NCBI GenBank assembly: GCA_903881085.1
Contig: CAIRSA010000109.1
Coordinates: 1-64,000 of the forward strand
Direction: 5' to 3'
DNA: 64,000 nucleotides
Source of the DNA: an uncultured Acidobacteriia bacterium
GTDB taxonomy: Bacteria; Acidobacteriota; Terriglobia; Bryobacterales; Bryobacteraceae
Shown here: positions 13,384 to 60,790 of the stretch, piece after piece
How the letters are laid out: every line of letters starts with the position of its first letter
Position numbering within the stretch: position 1 is the first letter of the stretch
The notes under the pieces: generated by a model
Databases searched by the model: none
What the model was told of the DNA's origin: nothing
What the model saw: the letters and a program-made list of their open reading frames with translations, nothing else
Translations under genes and position numbers: made by a program

Positions 13384-14985
13384 TTACTGGTAGCCTCGAA
13401 TCTCCTTAAATACTACCGCAAGTGACTTGGCGCGAGAATCGAAGAGACGTCCGCCGGTGATGGCGGCGAGTTCATTCAACTGCTTGGCGCTGCCTTCGCC
13501 GAACAGGATGGGGAAGACGCGGATGCCACGAGTGGCTTCGTCCTGCGCGGCGTGCCAGCGCTTGAATTCCGAAAGCGAGATGCCTTCGTTGCTTTCTCCG
13601 TCAGTCATAACTACTACAGTGTAATAACGTTTTTCTCTATTCATCGCGCGCTGGCGGCCGAGTTCGGAGATGGCGTTTCGCACGCTGGAAAAGAGCGCCG
13701 TTCCGCCACCGGCTTCCATGGGCCTGACGAAGGCGGCGACTTCGGCACGGGCTCGGGCGTTTTCCGCAGGCGTAGCGCCCATGGGGAACATTCGCGTGGG
13801 ATTCGGGTGCGTATTGAAGGTGATGATACCAACCTCTTCGCGGTTCTGGAAGTGGGCGTAGCGCTGGGCCTGCGCTTCCGAGGCGAGCATGAGCATGGCC
13901 TCTTTCAACCCATCGATACGGGGGCCTGACATGGAGCCGGAAAGATCAAGCACGTAGCGGGTTGAGCCGGGGGTGCGGACGTCTGAGAGGAAGTTACCGA
14001 GTAGAGCGTCAATGAGCGAGGCCTGGCCGGGGAACGGCAGTTCGATCAACGTGCGCTGTGGAATCACCGGGGCTGCGGTTGCGTCGGCGTTCACAGGGCG
14101 GCGCAGGGTTGCGGCGGACATTTTCGTCTGGAAATCTTTACCGCGAAGGTAGGCGATCAGCTTGTCGAAATCGGGGCGCTTTTCGGCGGAGAGCAGCATC
14201 AGCGGATAGTCGGCTGTGATGATGCCTTCCTTGGGATAGACCAGCGTAAGGGGTTCGGAGAGCTTGCCGGAGGCGTTTTCAGAGAGCAGGACCGATTCGT
14301 AGTTGATCATGCCATCGACCGTCGATTGCTCGCGTTCGTAGGCTTCCGCAAGCCAGCCGGAGGAGCCGGATGTCATGGTTTGACCGCGGAAGAAATCGCC
14401 GAGGCGGGGGTTCTTGAGGTCCTCTTCGGTGAGGGCGTCGGGGTTCTTGGCGAGCGCAGCGGCAAGGCCGATGGTCGCGGTGAGGCCGGTGTTGCTGGAA
14501 GTTGGGTTGGCCATGCCGAAGGTGAATTTGCCGGCTTTGGCGGCGTCGGAAATCTCTTTCCAGGTGGGTTCGGCTTTGTCCCAGCCCAGTTCGCGGGCCT
14601 TCGATGTTTTCAGGCCTAGCAGGACGGGCGAGAGCATTGTCTTTTCTTGGGCCAGGATGCGGCTTTTCAGCGCATCGTTCATGGCGATGTACTTGCCGTG
14701 GGAGACCCAGAGGGCGTCGAATTTGTCGCCAGCGGCGATTCGATCGACTGCGTCGAGCGTGCCGGAATAGGAGAAGGCTAGCTCGATGCCGGTGGCTTTT
14801 TGAATGTCAGCGGAGAGCTGGGTTTCGATGTCCTTTAGTTCGGAGCCGGCTAGGATCTTAAATGTTCTTGGGGAGGGTTCTGAGGGTTTGGTGGAGGAAC
14901 AAGCGGTTAGTAGGGCGAGGGTGGCAAAAGTGGACAGGCGAATCGCCTGTCCTACCCATGGCGGAACGAATCTTTGAGGTTTCAT
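13384..14985 (-). CDS. Lipoprotein fusing a substrate-binding domain to a von Willebrand A domain
   Basis: A 533-residue lipoprotein with lipobox LLTACSS (Cys29). Residues about 40-300 look like an extracellular solute-binding fold (FKILAGSELKDIE, FGMANPTSSNTGLTA, GIITADYPLMLLS). Residues about 340-533 are a vWA domain with an intact MIDAS: DLSGS (Asp347, Ser349, Ser351), a downstream Thr in GGGTALF and Asp in MTDGES. It should bind a ligand outside the inner membrane and present a metal-dependent adhesion surface. It overlaps the TelA stop by 4 bp (ATGA). The n-region of its signal peptide is encoded by a palindromic repeat (14932-14952). Confidence 0.85.
   Translation of the reverse strand: MKPQRFVPPWVGQAIRLSTFATLALLTACSSTKPSEPSPRTFKILAGSELKDIETQLSADIQKATGIELAFSYSGTLDAVDRIAAGDKFDALWVSHGKYIAMNDALKSRILAQEKTMLSPVLLGLKTSKARELGWDKAEPTWKEISDAAKAGKFTFGMANPTSSNTGLTATIGLAAALAKNPDALTEEDLKNPRLGDFFRGQTMTSGSSGWLAEAYEREQSTVDGMINYESVLLSENASGKLSEPLTLVYPKEGIITADYPLMLLSAEKRPDFDKLIAYLRGKDFQTKMSAATLRRPVNADATAAPVIPQRTLIELPFPGQASLIDALLGNFLSDVRTPGSTRYVLDLSGSMSGPRIDGLKEAMLMLASEAQAQRYAHFQNREEVGIITFNTHPNPTRMFPMGATPAENARARAEVAAFVRPMEAGGGTALFSSVRNAISELGRQRAMNREKRYYTVVVMTDGESNEGISLSEFKRWHAAQDEATRGIRVFPILFGEGSAKQLNELAAITGGRLFDSRAKSLAVVFKEIRGYQ
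14932..14952. repeat. REP-like palindrome inside a signal-peptide coding region
   Basis: GGACAGGCGAATCGCCTGTCC is a 21-base palindrome, perfect except for its single central base. Related units occur at 60717-60790 and, as a half unit, at 10610. Here it is read in frame as part of the leader of the substrate-binding/vWA lipoprotein. Confidence 0.75.
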
Positions 14986-31370: not shown

Positions 31371-32800
31371 TGCTTACATCTACCCGCCGCAGTTTTCTCG
31401 GCACCATGGCGGCTGCGTCGTTCGCCGCGCCCGCGATCCATGCCAAATCAACGGCCAACATCAAGATTCAGGAAGTGACTTTCAGCTACGAGGACTTTCT
31501 TTACCGCACGCCGATTAAGTTTGGCGGCAACGTGGTGGACCGCGTCACGCTGCTGAACGTCAACTGCGTGGTGAAGGGCGTGAACGGGAAGACGGTGAAG
31601 GGGTTTGGCTCCATGCCGCTGGGGAATGTGTGGTCGTTCCCATCGAAGACCATGCCCTACGACAAGACGCTCACCGCCATGAAGACGCTGGCCGAGCGCA
31701 TGTCGAAGATCATGAACGCGTACAAAGAAGCGGGCCATCCGATGGACATCAATCACGCCATTGAGCCGCTGTGGTTGAAGGCCTCGGCCGAGGTTTCGGC
31801 GGAATTGAAACTGGACGTGCCCATCCCGAAACTGTGCGCGCTCGTGACCGGCAGCCCGTTTGACGCGGCTTTGAACGATGCTTACGGAAAATTGCACGGC
31901 CGCAACATTTTCGACTGTTACTCGGCGGAGTTCATGAACTACGACCTTTCGCACTACATCGGCGAAAAGTTCAAAGGCGAGTACGCCGACAAGTATGTGC
32001 TGAAGACGCCCAAGGCGACCATGCCACTTTATCACCTGGTAGGCGCGGTGGATCCGCTGACGCCGGGCGAGGTGCAGAAGTCGGTGGGGGATGGCTTACC
32101 GGAGCATCTGGCGCAGTGGATCGAGTACAGCGGCTTGACGCACATGAAGATCAAGCTGAACGGCGAAGACAACAAGTGGGACACCGATCGCGTGCTGGCC
32201 GTGGACAAAGTAGCCACCGAAGTGCAGCGCAAGCGCGGCGTGACGAACTGGGTGTATTCGCTCGACTTCAACGAAAAATGCCCGAATGTGGGCTATTTGG
32301 TGGAGTTTTTGAAGAACGTGAAGCAGAAGACGCAGTCGGGCTTCGACCGCATTCAGTATGTGGAACAGCCCACCAAGCGCGATTTGCAGGCGGACCGCAC
32401 CAATGTGATGTTCGAGGCTTCGAAGATCCGCCCGGTGGTGATCGATGAATCGTTGACCGGCCAGGATGCGCTGATGTTGTGCCGCGAGATGGGTTACACG
32501 GGCGCGGCGTTGAAGGCTTGCAAAGGACAGTCGCAGGCTGTGCTGATGGCGGCAATCTGCCAGAAGTACAAGATGTTTTTGTGCGTGCAGGATCTGACCT
32601 GCCCTGGCGCTTCGCTGATTCATTCGGCCTCGATCGCGGCGCACATTCCTGGTGTGGCCGCGATTGAAGCGAACTCCCGCCAGTATGTTCCGGCTGCCAA
32701 CAAAAGCTGGGACGCGAAGTTCCCGGGCGTGTTCGATGTTCACAATGGCAAGATGAACACTGCCATACTGAACGGGCCGGGTTTAGGCGCAGTGGCTTAG
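31370..32800 (+). CDS. Tat-exported enolase-superfamily protein (mandelate racemase/muconate lactonizing type)
   Basis: A 476-residue protein with a twin-arginine leader (TRRSFLGTMAAASFAAPAIHA). The C-terminal barrel of the enolase superfamily is seen in HMKIKLNGED (likely catalytic Lys), VYSLDFNEKC (metal Asp), QYVEQPTKRD (metal Glu) and VVIDESLTGQ (metal Asp). Such enzymes abstract a proton alpha to a carboxylate with a divalent metal. Substrate unknown; periplasmic members are frequent in acidobacteria and planctomycetes. It precedes the palindromic repeat at 32817 and faces the cytochrome operon. Confidence 0.85.
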   Translation: MLTSTRRSFLGTMAAASFAAPAIHAKSTANIKIQEVTFSYEDFLYRTPIKFGGNVVDRVTLLNVNCVVKGVNGKTVKGFGSMPLGNVWSFPSKTMPYDKTLTAMKTLAERMSKIMNAYKEAGHPMDINHAIEPLWLKASAEVSAELKLDVPIPKLCALVTGSPFDAALNDAYGKLHGRNIFDCYSAEFMNYDLSHYIGEKFKGEYADKYVLKTPKATMPLYHLVGAVDPLTPGEVQKSVGDGLPEHLAQWIEYSGLTHMKIKLNGEDNKWDTDRVLAVDKVATEVQRKRGVTNWVYSLDFNEKCPNVGYLVEFLKNVKQKTQSGFDRIQYVEQPTKRDLQADRTNVMFEASKIRPVVIDESLTGQDALMLCREMGYTGAALKACKGQSQAVLMAAICQKYKMFLCVQDLTCPGASLIHSASIAAHIPGVAAIEANSRQYVPAANKSWDAKFPGVFDVHNGKMNTAILNGPGLGAVA

Positions 32801-32816
32801 CGGGGAAGTGCGCAGG

Positions 32817-32994
32817 CTCAGACATCCTGACCTCCACGGAAATTAGTATGAGCCAAAACCGCTTGCTGACGTGCGCGGCTCGGCTAGCGGTTGCCTGCTA
32901 CTAACCGAGCCGCGCACGTTCGTAAGCGGTTCTTCGGGAACAATTGAATTTCCACTTCGCGGCCAAATTCCCCGCCGAGGTCAGGATGTCTGAG
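32817..32994. repeat. Nested-palindrome repeat, copy 1 (178 bp)
   Basis: Perfect 18-bp terminal inverted repeats, CTCAGACATCCTGACCTC (32817-32834) and its complement (32977-32994), enclose a second, 27-bp inverted repeat (32857-32883 with 32905-32931) around a 21-nt loop. A second copy lies at 39842-40017 in the same orientation. Where the inner stems differ, changes are compensatory: G-C at one pair here is A-T there. No target duplication or ORF is evident. It fills the gap between two convergent genes; MITE-like or a structured dispersed repeat. Confidence 0.85.
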
Positions 32995-33010
32995 GCTGTT
33001 TTACTTCGGC

Positions 33011-35005
33011 CTAATGCACTTGCAGCGCAACCACGAACGTGTGGGCGCCGAAGCTTTCAAACTGGTAGTAGCGTTCGGTCATGCTGTGATACTGCCATTC
33101 CGTGCGCAGACCAAAGTGGGTGCGTAAGGGGATAACCATACGCACCAGCGGTTGGTAGAATTCGGTGGGACGGCTGCCATTCGAGATGAAGCCAGTTCCA
33201 CCGACGCTTATCTTTGCGCCCTTCCAGCAATTGACGTCCAGAGCGCTGGTGAAGGAATGTGAGTTTTCTTTGTAGAAGCTGTCGGCCAGCGTGAGCGTCT
33301 GCGGCACCCAGTAGTTGATGTCGCTGTGCAGCGTCCCACGCGTGTATTCGCCGAGCAGCGTAAAGGTCTTGCCGCCCCACGGAGTCCACATTGCCGTCAG
33401 CGAAGTGGCTCGTGATTGGAAGGTGTAACTTCCCGTTACCGACGGGCTCTCATTATCGAGATAGACGAAACTGCCGCTCAACAGCAGTGACCCAAAGGCC
33501 TGATATTTCGCGCGCAACTTGGTCTTTCTGTAATCCTGCAAGCTTGTCCGGAAGTAAGCCCTGCCCCCGGGAGAAGCTTCGAATTCAAAGTTGGTACTGA
33601 ACTTGTGGCCCATGCGCAGATTCAAGCCGAAGATGCCCACCTGCTGGCTCAACTTGCCGAGTTCCGCAGACTGGGGGAAGATCGGCGAGGGCCGCACGGA
33701 AGCATCTCCCCACACATAGCGGTAGCCGCCACGCACCGTCAGATAGTTGGTCGCCTCAAACAGCGCGTCAATCTGCTGGCGGTTATAATTCCACACGGCG
33801 CTGTCGTAAGCGGCCGGGTTCAATAGAGCGGTCGATTTGTTGCCGGACAGCAGAATTTGCTCAGTAAAGAAAGCGCTGGAGGCGTTGTGTAGCCTGTCCG
33901 TCGACCAGGATTCAATAATCCTGAGCCGGCGGAACGGGCGAATTTCGCCACCCAGTGTGCCAGTTGAATGAGGAAGTTTTGCATCGGCGGTCGTCAAACC
34001 CTGCTGTCCGTTATAAAAAAGCAAGCTGCTTAAAAGGAGGAGCTGGCCGCTGTCGGTCAGCGTGTAATTGGTATGTGTATCGGGCTGGGTATAAAGGAAC
34101 TGCGCGTTCAGGTCGAGCCAGGTAAACGGGTTTGCCGTAAACAGACCCTTGGTATAAATTTGATTGCCGGTGATAGAGTACGCTTGGGCAAGCGATGTGA
34201 GCGACAGCTGCTGCCCCAGGTAAGGCTTCTGATTATTGCCTAAGTTTTTGGCGGTGGAATAGGCGTCGTTCTCTTCAAACATGCCTCCGCCCTGCTCAAC
34301 CGTGGCATGCCACTTCTCAAATTGCATGCGCACGCCACCGCGGATGCGGTCCGTCTTGTCTTCCATGGCGCCGGCCACCGGATACTCATTGCCGTCACTG
34401 ACGAACGATGAGATTCCCGAGCCGCGGCCGGAATCATGACTCCATGCTACATAGGGAACAAAGCGTTTGCCGGGCCTGATGTCGAGTTCGACATTGGCCA
34501 AGCGGCGCTTCTGGTCAATGGACCGCTGGTTGAGAAAGACTCCGGTCGCAATGGTCGGATCGGCATAGGATGGCAGGAAATTGTAGTAAGCGATATTGCG
34601 ATAGTCGACCGACAGGCGGTACACGCCGTCCAACTTCGCATCGAGCCTTGCCGTATTGTACGGATCGCCGCCCCAGCCGTTGGCGCGGATATCGATGCGG
34701 TCGTAAAACTTGTGTGCAGCGTTGGCGATGGAAAGGTCAATGCCAAACAGCTTCGGGCCTTCGCCCAGGTTCACCACGCTGCGGTAGGCTTCCTTGCTGC
34801 CGCGGACATTGGTCACAAAGCGGTAGCCGATATCGGCGTTCCAATTGACGGTGACAGCGGTCTTCTTGGTCTCCTCGGCGGGAGGTGCGTCTTCTTTTTT
34901 GGCCTCGTCTACTTTCGACTCGGGGGCGGCAGGCTTTTCAGCGGCCGGTTTATCCTGCGCTAAAAGCGGCAGCAATGCGAGCGACCATGCGATGAGGATC
35001 TTCAT
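33011..35005 (-). CDS. MtrB/PioB-like outer-membrane porin of a decaheme conduit
   Basis: A 664-residue exported protein (signal peptide 1-16, then a Lys/Glu/Pro/Ala-rich linker to about 48). The remainder is a long run of alternating amphipathic strands (VTVNWNADIGYRF, LRIIESWSTDRLHNA, YLTVRGGYRYVWGDA) ending in TFVVALQVH, as expected for a large beta-barrel. In Mtr and Pio systems this barrel sheathes the MtrA-type cytochrome and inserts it through the outer membrane. The N-terminal Cys-x2-Cys of Shewanella MtrB is not present. It overlaps the decaheme gene by ATGA, the third gene of the operon. Assignment rests on topology, size and operon partners. Confidence 0.85.
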   Translation of the reverse strand: MKILIAWSLALLPLLAQDKPAAEKPAAPESKVDEAKKEDAPPAEETKKTAVTVNWNADIGYRFVTNVRGSKEAYRSVVNLGEGPKLFGIDLSIANAAHKFYDRIDIRANGWGGDPYNTARLDAKLDGVYRLSVDYRNIAYYNFLPSYADPTIATGVFLNQRSIDQKRRLANVELDIRPGKRFVPYVAWSHDSGRGSGISSFVSDGNEYPVAGAMEDKTDRIRGGVRMQFEKWHATVEQGGGMFEENDAYSTAKNLGNNQKPYLGQQLSLTSLAQAYSITGNQIYTKGLFTANPFTWLDLNAQFLYTQPDTHTNYTLTDSGQLLLLSSLLFYNGQQGLTTADAKLPHSTGTLGGEIRPFRRLRIIESWSTDRLHNASSAFFTEQILLSGNKSTALLNPAAYDSAVWNYNRQQIDALFEATNYLTVRGGYRYVWGDASVRPSPIFPQSAELGKLSQQVGIFGLNLRMGHKFSTNFEFEASPGGRAYFRTSLQDYRKTKLRAKYQAFGSLLLSGSFVYLDNESPSVTGSYTFQSRATSLTAMWTPWGGKTFTLLGEYTRGTLHSDINYWVPQTLTLADSFYKENSHSFTSALDVNCWKGAKISVGGTGFISNGSRPTEFYQPLVRMVIPLRTHFGLRTEWQYHSMTERYYQFESFGAHTFVVALQVH

Positions 35006-35937
35006 CGGAGTAGGCTCCTGTTCACGTGCGAGCCATGCACTTTGGTGTGGCAGATGGTGCAGTTCTGGTAGCGCGGACTGCGCAGGTCATGCAGGGCCGG
35101 TGGCACTCCGCCCAGCGTCGCCTGTTGCGTGCCGATGTTGGAGTGGCACTCCAGACACACATTCCGCACCTGATTCCGGGTAAGCAGTTTGGGATTGGCC
35201 GAACCGTGCGGCACATGGCAGGAAGTACAGCCTTCCAACCTCACCGGCGCATGTTCAAAGGCGAAGGGCCCGCGTTTATCGCCGTGGCAGTTGGTACAAG
35301 TCTGGTCGCGCGCCACCGTTTTGCCATGGGGATTATGGCAATCGATGCAGGACATAGCGCCCTCAGGAACCTTATGGCGGTGAGGTTTTTGAAATTCCGC
35401 CTTCTGGGTCACGTGGCATCCCGTGCAGAGCGTGTTGACGGAGGATGCGGCACGGATATTGGTCCCTTTTGCATGCACCGAATGGCACGACACACAACTC
35501 ACCTGGTTCTTGCCATGCCCACTCTGAACGCGACCGCTATGGGCCGGCGAATTCAGATGGCAAGCCAAACAGGTTTTGTCGACCTCGGCGGCGCGCAATT
35601 TCGCAGGTTGGCGGATGTCATCGGCAGAAAGCGATTCCTGGTGCTTCGCGCTCGGTCCGTGACAGGCCTCGCAGGATTTTTCTTTATGAACGTTCTTCTC
35701 AAAAGCTGTGGCTATGTCTTCGTGGCAGGTGGAACAAACTTCGTTCGCCGGATTTTTCGGCGCCGCACCTGCTGCGGATGAGAAGACTAGCAACGCAACG
35801 GCCGCCAGGATCGATTGGGGTACCGCGCCGGGGCTGGCGTTCCGGCGTGGAGGATTCGATACTCCGGCGGCCTGTTGCGTCTTGGCCATGGGGGTGGCCA
35901 TCTCGTGGTAATTATTCAGGTCCATAGCAGCTTTCAT
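35002..35937 (-). CDS. MtrA/DmsE-like periplasmic decaheme cytochrome c
   Basis: A 311-residue c-type cytochrome with exactly ten CxxCH heme motifs (CSTCH, CEACH, CLACH, CVSCH, CTGCH, CIDCH, CTNCH, CTSCH, CLECH, CTICH). Length and heme number match MtrA/DmsE (about 330, ten hemes). The hydrophobic signal core (SILAAVALLVFSSAAGAA) lies at about 42-59, so the mature protein is exported; an internal Met17 is a possible true start. It should thread the MtrB-like barrel and carry electrons from periplasmic donors to the outside cytochrome. It begins 2 bp after the OmcA/MtrC-like stop. Confidence 0.95.
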   Translation of the reverse strand: MKAAMDLNNYHEMATPMAKTQQAAGVSNPPRRNASPGAVPQSILAAVALLVFSSAAGAAPKNPANEVCSTCHEDIATAFEKNVHKEKSCEACHGPSAKHQESLSADDIRQPAKLRAAEVDKTCLACHLNSPAHSGRVQSGHGKNQVSCVSCHSVHAKGTNIRAASSVNTLCTGCHVTQKAEFQKPHRHKVPEGAMSCIDCHNPHGKTVARDQTCTNCHGDKRGPFAFEHAPVRLEGCTSCHVPHGSANPKLLTRNQVRNVCLECHSNIGTQQATLGGVPPALHDLRSPRYQNCTICHTKVHGSHVNRSLLR

Positions 35938-35939
35938 GG

Positions 35940-37961
35940 CTATCTCGCATGCACCTTGTCCACTGAATAATCAGCAGTTGGGGAATGACAGATCGCGCAG
36001 CTTTCGCCTAGCACTGTCGTATTCGATTTCGCGTGCGACGCGGTAGTCGCACTGGTGTGGCAACCCGTGCAGGCCGAGGTGGCCGCTCCCACCGGGTTGA
36101 TCGGCCCTCGCGGATCGATCACCGGCAGCAGGTTTTCGTTTAAAGGTAGTTGCTCTGACCCGTTCACGTGGCAGGCGCTGCAATCGCGCCGGTCACCAGG
36201 GAACTCAACATCTGTAAAGTCGTTCTTCGAACCGCCAAAGCCGTAGACGGTGAACTCGCGGGTGAGGTTCGTTCCCGTATGGATCTTGTGAACCATCTGC
36301 GCGAAGTTGATCGCCTGATTCGGTCCTTGCGAAGCCGGCCGGTATGCCGAATCCGTACCGTTCGGATTGTGGCACAGAACGCACTGCCCAATCTGGTTGC
36401 GATTGCTGCCATGTACACTCAAGCTGTCGTGGCAGGAGTTGCACTTGGCAGTGGCGACCACTTGGCGGCGTGGCGCCACTTTGGAGCCATCCACACTGAA
36501 GTAGATCTGCTGATTGGAGCCGGCATCTGACACCACCTGCTGTTTGGGGAATCCCTGCTGGATCGTGATGCTGCGGTAGCCTTCGATGCCAACGGCGTAG
36601 GAGCCCTTTGCGGTGGCCGGTACGGAAGCGGTAAACGTATAACTATGTGATCCGTCGGAGTTGGCGGGCGCCAAGCGAGCATCCTCAGAGATGTAGCTCG
36701 AGAAGTCACTTGTTGGTCCAGCCAGTACCAGCTGGAGACGGCTTAATTGGCCGGCCGGGACCACGCGCCCTTTCCGATCTTTCACGCGGAACTGAACCGT
36801 AGGCCGCTTGCCGGCGCCCCCGTTTGTGACACCCAATAATTCAAACACAGTTCCTGGGAGATCCATCGAGAACCGTGGAATCGTATGAGCGCCGACTATG
36901 GAAGCGTCGAACTCCAGTTCGCCCTGGGGGACGTGACAGGTTGCGCACTGGTTATCGGTAGTTTGCACCAATTTAGCGTCATTGTGGCCTTCGCCGGTGG
37001 CGAAGTTGACGTTATCGTGGCAGCTACCGCAAGCGGCCCGGGATGGTTTCAGGTAGTTGGTAGACTGCGTCGTCTTGCGGTCGCCGCTCTGTTCGTGGCA
37101 GAACGTGCAGTTACGCGCATCCGAAGGCAGAACAACACCTGAGAAGTCGACAACACTTTGATTGAATCCTATAATTTGATACTTCTTACCAGTCTTCACG
37201 CTGGGCAGGCTGGAACCCATGTGGATCTTGTGCGCCATCACTTTCAGGTCAATCGAATTGCCCGTGTCCGGGTCAGTCGATTGCGGGTTATGGCAAAGGA
37301 CGCAAAGCTCCACCTTCTGGCGTGCTCCGCCGTGGGCCGAAAGCGGGTCGTGGCATTTGTTGCAGGTGGCCGTGCGGATCACATCGCGCACCGCGCTGAC
37401 CTTGCTTCCGTCAGGCACAAAAGAGATTACATCGTCCGAAAAGTTATTCGGCACATTAAATTCGGAAAGATTTCGCGTTGAATAGGCACCAATTGTATGT
37501 GTAGCCGTGCGGTCATATCCGGAAGGCAACTTAGTGCCAAAGGTATATTTAAAGGTTCCGTCGGCCACTGCTTCAAACTTACCGCCGGAATCAGTAGAAC
37601 CCTGCGTGGCTGATTTATTGGTAATGGGGCTGGTTTGAATGCGCGTCGTATAATTGACGTATTGCGTATCGCCCTTGGGGATGTAGGAGATCAGCAAACT
37701 TACGCTGACCGGCCCGGGCGTCTTAACGCCGGCCATATCGAGTGGGACACCCTTTGGATCTGCGAGACTGAACGTGGCAGTAACGGTTCCGTCAGCCGCG
37801 GCGGCACCGGACAACAATTTCAAGGCTAATCCAGGACGCAGATAATCAATATCTTTTTCGTCGAGGTAAAAAGCCCTCTGGTGTTTGTTGAACGATGTTC
37901 TTGTTGCGCTGACTAGTGCAATTGTCATTCCGACTAGCAGCAATGTGAACCTGAGCTTCAT
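35940..37961 (-). CDS. OmcA/MtrC-family surface decaheme cytochrome c
   Basis: A 673-residue exported cytochrome from ATG 37961 (AGGA 8 nt upstream; signal MKLRFTLLLVGMTIALVSA). Ten CxxCH motifs occur in two pentaheme groups: CNKCH, CVLCH, CTFCH, CGSCH, CATCH and, after a beta domain, CNSCH, CVLCH, CSACH, CTGCH, CAICH. The halves are visibly duplicated (CNKCHDPLSAHGG and CNSCHDSLSVHGS; both followed by CVLCHNP and HKIHxG). This is the MtrC/OmcA plan of alternating split-barrel and heme domains, the terminal reductase of extracellular electron transfer. Unlike Shewanella MtrC there is no lipobox cysteine. It is the first gene of the operon with the periplasmic cytochrome and porin. Confidence 0.95.
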   Translation of the reverse strand: MKLRFTLLLVGMTIALVSATRTSFNKHQRAFYLDEKDIDYLRPGLALKLLSGAAAADGTVTATFSLADPKGVPLDMAGVKTPGPVSVSLLISYIPKGDTQYVNYTTRIQTSPITNKSATQGSTDSGGKFEAVADGTFKYTFGTKLPSGYDRTATHTIGAYSTRNLSEFNVPNNFSDDVISFVPDGSKVSAVRDVIRTATCNKCHDPLSAHGGARQKVELCVLCHNPQSTDPDTGNSIDLKVMAHKIHMGSSLPSVKTGKKYQIIGFNQSVVDFSGVVLPSDARNCTFCHEQSGDRKTTQSTNYLKPSRAACGSCHDNVNFATGEGHNDAKLVQTTDNQCATCHVPQGELEFDASIVGAHTIPRFSMDLPGTVFELLGVTNGGAGKRPTVQFRVKDRKGRVVPAGQLSRLQLVLAGPTSDFSSYISEDARLAPANSDGSHSYTFTASVPATAKGSYAVGIEGYRSITIQQGFPKQQVVSDAGSNQQIYFSVDGSKVAPRRQVVATAKCNSCHDSLSVHGSNRNQIGQCVLCHNPNGTDSAYRPASQGPNQAINFAQMVHKIHTGTNLTREFTVYGFGGSKNDFTDVEFPGDRRDCSACHVNGSEQLPLNENLLPVIDPRGPINPVGAATSACTGCHTSATTASHAKSNTTVLGESCAICHSPTADYSVDKVHAR

Positions 37962-38095
37962 TCCGCTTTTCCTAAGGCACGCTACTGGCCAAAGCCAATA
38001 CGCACTCAAAATCAATAGTTTGCCGAATTCCCGGCGAATTTCATGGGTGAAATAACTCGGGCTTGGGTGGTCACGGGGTGTAAACTCGAATCAGG

Positions 38096-39740: not shown

Positions 39741-39841
39741 AGTATTAAGGAAGGCGGAGTCCAAAGGGTATATGTTACAGACCAACAACGCTAATCGCGA
39801 AGTCCGGCCCCGCCGGCGAGTATTTTTAGGCGGAAATAGGT

Positions 39842-40017
39842 TCAGACATCCTGACCTCGAAGGAAAGTAGCATGAGCCAGAACCGCTTACTAACGTACGC
39901 GGCTCGGTTAGCGGTTGCCTGCTGCTCAACGAGCCGCGTACGTTAGTAAGCGGTTCTTCGGGATCAATTGAATTTCCATTTTCCGGCCCAATTCCCCGTC
40001 GAGGTCAGGATGTCTGA
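39842..40017. repeat. Nested-palindrome repeat, copy 2 (176 bp)
   Basis: Perfect 19-bp terminal inverted repeats, TCAGACATCCTGACCTCGA (39842-39860) and its complement (39999-40017), enclose a perfect 28-bp inner inverted repeat (39879-39906 with 39930-39957) around a 23-nt loop. Same orientation as copy 1 at 32817. The stems keep pairing despite substitutions between copies. It occupies most of the gene-free stretch 39741-40095; the rest of that gap shows only the likely promoter region of the 134-residue protein. Confidence 0.85.
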
Positions 40018-40095
40018 GTTTAGCCGTAGCAAGAAGGCTCAAGCCAACTACATCGGGCGACGCGGCATAATGCCGCGCCGCACTCATCCACTGCC

Positions 40096-60693: not shown

Positions 60694-60716
60694 GGCGAAA
60701 GAACTAATTAGTATTT

Positions 60717-60790
60717 GCACAGGCGAATCGCCTGCGCCACCCAAGGAAACACAATTTGTTTAAGGGTGGGGCGGGCGATTCGCCTGCCCT
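60717..60790. repeat. Two inverted REP-like units forming a long hairpin
   Basis: GCACAGGCGAATCGCCTGCG...CCACCC (60717-60742) faces GGGTGGGGCGGGCGATTCGCC...TG (60764-60787) with few mismatches around a loop of about 21 nt. Each arm also contains the near-palindrome CAGGCGAATCGCCTG seen at 14932. It could end transcription of the upstream carboxykinase-like gene. Confidence 0.75.

Follow-up and report, generated by a model that had tools for sequence, protein, structure and literature searches.

A window of 64,000 nucleotides from the genome of an uncultured Acidobacteriia bacterium carries a nested palindrome in two copies, one hairpin enclosed by the arms of another. The initial annotation of this DNA pointed to a paired base change between the copies, read it as a sign that base pairing itself has been selected, and left the identity of the palindrome open between a MITE, a REP-like element and a structured RNA. 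Which of these is the palindrome, and does the pairing of its arms reflect selection on a structure or the way in which mobile repeats are built? We followed this question from the two copies to the rest of the genome and to its relatives, looking at the boundaries of the element, its possible parent, the distribution of the inner hairpin and the pattern of change in the stems.

Results

A nested palindrome at 39842-40017 is confirmed. Its outer arms (39842-39863 and 39996-40017) are 22 nt long and 95% complementary, and they enclose inner arms at 39879-39912 and 39924-39957 (34 nt, complementarity 94%). The predicted fold has an energy of -135.1 kcal/mol (z = -9.8), and 0/200 dinucleotide shuffles were equally stable. 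The second copy (32814-32994) shares 88% sequence identity with the first, at a distance of 7,024 bases. The initial annotation had ascribed the same stems to both. A nested fold does exist in each, but the perfect inner stem of 27-28 bp does not extend to copy 2, in which the inner arms are 87% complementary across 31 nt with several mismatches and the outer perfect stem measures 17 bp. The paired change between the copies is also real: a two-sided G-C to A-T change turns ACGTGCG / CGCACGT into ACGTACG / CGTACGT.

The two copies belong to a larger family. A whole-element search of the genome (11.9 Mb, 588 contigs) gave at least 40 forward places, scored as the best 40 of 143 candidates, and the terminal 17-mer matched 58 + 65 = 123 times at up to 2 mismatches, against 0 matches for the reversed control pattern. 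Judging from these matches, the genome probably holds about 50-60 copies. Many of them stand at contig ends, where repeats commonly end up in draft assemblies. The true ends were derived from 31 two-ended copies, 30 of which were testable for a target duplication. In its main form the element is 174 bp long, has no coding capacity and lies between 5-bp direct repeats with the consensus A-R-N-Y-T. The left and right repeat agree exactly in 12/30 copies and with no more than one mismatch in 22/30. When the flanks were paired at random in 10,000 shuffles, exact repeats averaged 0.97 and peaked at 6. For duplication lengths of 2-4 and 6-9 bp the same 30 copies showed no excess over shuffled flank pairs. 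Duplications of 3 bp inside a CTA...TAG palindrome had also been considered, and were dropped when more aligned copies gave 5 bp. The palindromic unit of about 176-177 bp proposed initially therefore needs trimming: the palindrome is present, but the element proper is 174 bp, and the terminal T...A pair is part of the 5-bp target duplication.

With these bounds, taken from the target duplications of 30 copies and an exact pattern match, copy 1 (subfamily A, plus strand) spans 39843-40016 and runs from CAGACATCCTGACCTC to GAGGTCAGGATGTCTG. Flank comparison places its left target duplication, AGGTT, at 39838-39842 and its right one, AGTTT, at 40017-40021, an imperfect pair that agrees in 4/5 positions. 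The left terminal inverted repeat occupies 39843-39858 on the plus strand and the right one 40001-40016 on the minus strand, both recognized in the terminal-repeat search mentioned above. Arm comparison and motif search delimit the inner REP-like palindrome of copy 1 at 39879-39957 (plus strand), where two inverted ACCGCTTACTAACGTGCGCGGCTCGG-type arms surround a loop of ~20 nt. Copy 2 (subfamily B, 174 bp, plus strand), located by genome search, flank comparison and pattern match, spans 32819-32992 between exact AGGCT duplications at 32814-32818 and 32993-32997; its inner REP-like palindrome, with the less regular 31-nt arms, was placed at 32857-32931 (plus strand) by arm comparison.

Both window copies are intergenic. 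Copy 1 has a TonB-receptor-like gene on one side and the next minus-strand gene on the other. The genes around copy 2 converge, with stop codons at 32800 and 33011, and the element takes up the space between them. A crude survey of 20 MITE copies found 0/20 inside predicted genes. Copy 2 has a porin-cytochrome type cluster as its neighbour (33011-38015) and lies just downstream of it. The cluster comprises an OmcA/MtrC-family decaheme cytochrome (35940-38015, E = 2.9e-155), a DmsE-family decaheme cytochrome (35002-35937, E = 7.9e-64) and, in the MtrB position, a 664-aa protein without family match (33011-35005); by its predicted products it looks like an extracellular electron-transfer conduit. 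The window further contains a 31-nt repeat with CAGGCGAATCGCCTG at 14931-14961 and 60716-60746 (copies 84% identical, with similar strings beside the locus L101), which is probably another short intergenic palindrome.

A search for a transposase with matching ends, suggested along with the initial annotation, was successful within the same genome. There, a 2,389-bp insertion sequence (G000:C226:17282-19670) is bounded by facing terminal repeats like those of the MITE and, when trimmed to CAG...CTG, has TACTT on both flanks. Its 574-aa reading frame matches Transposase_29 (PF21804) with E = 3.5e-155 and 517.8 bits, compared to a curated cut-off of 27; in NCBIfam no model matched this transposase at E<1. 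Upstream of the transposase frame is a 172-aa frame with HTH matches. The two frames join at an A8 run (L077:3595-3620), from which point onward the downstream one is open. In other genomes the corresponding open frame is single and has 824-848 codons, which suggests that HTH and transposase form one fused protein. The A8 run could be a site of programmed slippage, either ribosomal or transcriptional.

By end alignment, the MITE retains 38 bp of the left end of this insertion sequence (32 identical; 39842-39879 in copy 1, plus strand) and 45 columns of its right end (41 identical; 39973-40016, plus strand), with order and orientation kept. Beyond the terminal repeat the two ends of the insertion sequence differ from each other, so that the match exceeds a mere common repeat. 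No other intact transposase with exactly the ends of the MITE was found, and the MITE copies closest to each other are ~95% identical, so that activity may lie far back in time or may have been lost. The genome contains another Transposase_29 insertion sequence (L160, G000:C73:24000-27169), whose transposase is 59% identical and whose ends are CAGAACTCCTGACCTC. Because the right end of this element is found again at several contig ends (L161, L162, L166 and L167), it is probably a multi-copy element that was collapsed in the assembly.

Another MITE family in the genome has the ends CAGAyCTCCTGATnTC (CAGACCTCCTGATCTC / CAGATCTCCTGATGTC) and carries the other variant of the REP-like arm. Its members are L163 (L163:356-558), L165, L283, L290 and L291, plus L164, a copy without the hairpin that could be either an empty ancestor or the product of a deletion.

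What is known of the transposase family itself? Named genomes yielded 144 transposase relatives, spread over many phyla, and the nearest of them suggest that the host of the element is an acidobacterium of the Bryobacterales. A literature search under the name Transposase_29 found no relevant paper in the library searched. When the flanks of 48 relatives were examined for inverted ends, CAGAnnnCCTGAyCTC-like ends were recovered, and about a dozen of these relatives have exact 5-bp duplications (e.g. AGGGT, AGGCT, AATTT, AATAT, AGTCT, AAGTT, AAATT). Family ends together with a 5-bp duplication occur in Desulfobulbaceae, Neomarinimicrobiota, Anammoxibacter, Verrucomicrobia and Bradyrhizobium. 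In an alignment of 19 transposase sequences D149, D241 and E344 are invariant. The closest match of the predicted structure (pLDDT 83.4) is the Tn5 transposase (Z 19.1, 326 residues, rmsd 4.5), and piggyBac matches more weakly; the absence of other transposase families from the list of structural matches is no evidence against them. A sequence search of solved structures with the transposase gave no match. From the invariant residues and the structural model we infer that the Transposase_29 protein is a DDE cut-and-paste enzyme.

The inner palindrome has a distribution of its own. The arm motif ACCGCTyvCTnACGsnCGCGGCTCGG has 52 exact matches in the same genome, mostly ACCGCTCCCTnACGGTCGCGGCTCGG, and is present in 15/61 genomes of the same class, with 111 matches in G017 and 35 in G003. 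Both of the latter genomes have the motif without any Transposase_29 match. A MITE of 150-180 bp with exactly the ends described here was found in none of the 60 relatives. In the genome under study, free palindromes have sharp ends (ACCGCT...AGCGGT) and unique flanks, and the 47-nt spacing of their arm starts is that of the MITE version. The common arm variant of the free palindromes, ACCGCTCCCTnACGGTCGCGG, is distinct from the arm found in MITE family A/B. GTAG stands next to the arm, on the loop side, in a few relatives (L032, L040, L042, L047) and is absent from most copies in the own genome. Because free copies have unique flanks, and because the palindrome occurs in genomes without Transposase_29, we regard it as an independent REP-like repeat. 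In some copies the palindrome also flips its orientation, or swaps sequence between its arms: the loop of L085 is turned around with respect to the MITE ends, and a 24-nt insertion shared by L163 and L291 sits in one arm in the former and in the opposite arm in the latter. Such flipping or exchange offers another path to apparent paired changes.

Covariation was analysed in an alignment of 34 copies, with counts made both within subfamilies and on the pooled copies. Within subfamilies, the inner stem has 64 one-sided changes that break a pair, 20 one-sided changes compatible with G-T pairing and 3 double changes, 2 of them compensatory; if the arms varied independently, 2.08 double changes would be expected. 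The pooled copies have 13 cells changed on both sides, compared to a shuffle mean of 6.2 in a control that ignores relatedness. Eleven of these changes fall at columns 51/105 and one each at two further pairs. Columns 51/105 carry an A-T to G-C switch, with G-T intermediates, that divides the two subfamilies. The switch is probably a single old event, and it accounts for nearly all of the pooled excess. As for the paired change highlighted by the initial annotation, it is one of the two single cases and occurs in one copy only. A GCGGTG variant in one arm, common to 10-12 of the 34 copies, breaks two pairs. Nothing in the window reached the gathering score of an Rfam family. Selection on base pairing, as deduced from the paired changes, is thus unsupported: pair-breaking changes outnumber compensatory ones by 64 to 2, essentially the outcome that had been named beforehand as speaking against it. 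In the aligned sequences we see no evidence of selection on pairing in the inner stem beyond the constraint on transposon ends.

Discussion

Sequence comparison makes us highly confident that the element is a MITE, namely a 174-bp non-autonomous derivative of a Transposase_29 element with a captured REP-like palindrome inside. A Transposase_29 (PF21804) insertion sequence most likely lost its transposase gene and kept both of its different ends, thereby giving rise to the MITE. A transposase encoded elsewhere in the genome would bind the CAGACATCCTGACCTC ends, as the matching ends suggest, and would mobilise the MITE in trans, excising or copying it and inserting it at A-R-N-Y-T-like sites where 5 bp are duplicated. 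A separate REP-like palindrome probably entered an ancestor of the MITE and was then amplified as a passenger. The nesting would then consist of terminal repeats (the outer stem) around a captured hairpin (the inner stem), and the taxonomic distribution points to the hairpin entering the MITE as the direction of the event. Paired changes are no more frequent than expected from arms that mutate independently, hence selection on pairing is not needed to explain them. Among the identities offered initially, MITE holds for the outer part and REP-like element for the inner part, while structured RNA does not hold. What appeared to be a selected structured RNA is resolved as one mobile repeat inside another, both of known kinds. 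The feature adds a new case to an ordinary class of mobile DNA, with a mildly unusual composite build, and is not a selected RNA structure.

How do other explanations compare? A structured RNA (cis-regulatory or small), or a single-stranded DNA element under selection for pairing, would agree with the very stable fold, with the one subfamily-defining A-T to G-C change that has G-T intermediates, and with two private compensated pairs. We nonetheless consider it extremely improbable: within subfamilies compensatory changes are vastly outnumbered by pair-breaking ones and double changes are at chance level, the GCGGTG arm variant disrupts pairing in a sizeable part of the copies, Rfam is without a match, and dispersal is accounted for by the exact 5-bp duplications and the insertion-sequence ends. 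The reverse direction of the hairpin event, in which free palindromes would be the decayed remains of MITEs, has a precedent in truncated MITEs of Coxiella that resemble REPs (PMC10969869). It is very unlikely here, as the palindrome is found in genera without a Transposase_29 match or a MITE, the flanks of the free copies are unique up to ACCGCT...AGCGGT with no MITE residue, and the common free arm is unlike that of MITE family A/B.

Another thought concerns the way in which the inner palindrome moves. It could be a REP or REPIN moved by a RAYT (REP-associated tyrosine transposase), in which case its capture by the MITE would reflect RAYT activity; this is compatible with the outer MITE, and we consider it possible, if rather doubtful. 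The short inverted arm pairs are intergenic, exist in tens of copies and occur in several genera, and RAYT-like genes are found in the own genome and in 38/61 genomes. However, 0/8 of the RAYT-like genes in the own genome have the arm motif within ~0.1-1 kb. Abundance of hairpins and of RAYTs does not consistently go together across genomes, with 35 hairpins but a single weak RAYT-like match in G003 and 0 hairpins but 9 RAYT-like matches in G032, and RAYTs are common across the family regardless of hairpins. On a more speculative note, and with a somewhat lower likelihood still, two unrelated mobile repeats might have come together on more than one occasion, REP-like palindromes of two variants entering two Transposase_29 MITE lineages, with the hairpin kept as an advantage to the MITE. 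Blocking read-through transcription, or harmless insertion at the 3' ends of genes, could perhaps be such an advantage. If so, Transposase_29 would be an insertion-sequence family with its own undescribed MITE and palindrome ecology.

The preferred reading, a Transposase_29 MITE around a captured palindrome, connects a family of MITEs with a named family of transposases (PF21804). For the latter it supplies two rules that hold in several phyla, CAGAnnnCCTGAyCTC ends and a duplication of 5 bp, with which other non-autonomous derivatives should be easy to find. The case also calls for caution: a single paired change between two palindrome copies says little about whether base pairing has been selected.

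Comparable elements have been described in other prokaryotes. MITEs such as QMITE2 of Coxiella, Chunjie of Geobacter and Correia/NEMIS (PMC10969869) resemble the element in being shorter than 500 bp, with terminal inverted repeats and target duplications, in lacking a gene, and in their intergenic position, strong hairpin if transcribed, and insertion-sequence-derived ends. Unlike them, the MITE described here has a Transposase_29 element as its parent, and its interior is an intact, independent palindrome that is also free in the genome. The inner part is similar to REPs and REPINs (PMC3733652, PMC3116915, PMC2817692), which are likewise short intergenic palindromes arranged as inverted arm pairs, with tens of copies per genome and several variants in one genome. 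In those systems a GTAG or CGTC end tag defines two known superfamilies (PMC3733652, PMC3116915, PMC2817692). The palindrome in question differs from them in that its arms are 26-27 nt long, no RAYT gene is linked to it, and some of its copies lie inside a MITE. Finally, the predicted enzyme has a DDE transposase character and a Tn5-like predicted fold in common with Tn5 and the IS4-related insertion sequences (IS4, IS1634, ISH3; PMC2266710), of which ISH3, an archaeal relative of IS4, makes 5-bp duplications framed by A and T (PMC2266710). Transposase_29 elements, in contrast, are 2.3-2.6 kb long with CAGA ends, do not fit the IS1634 and ISH3 entries in size and ends (PMC2266710), and in the genome studied here have a transposase with a separate upstream HTH frame joined at an A8 run.
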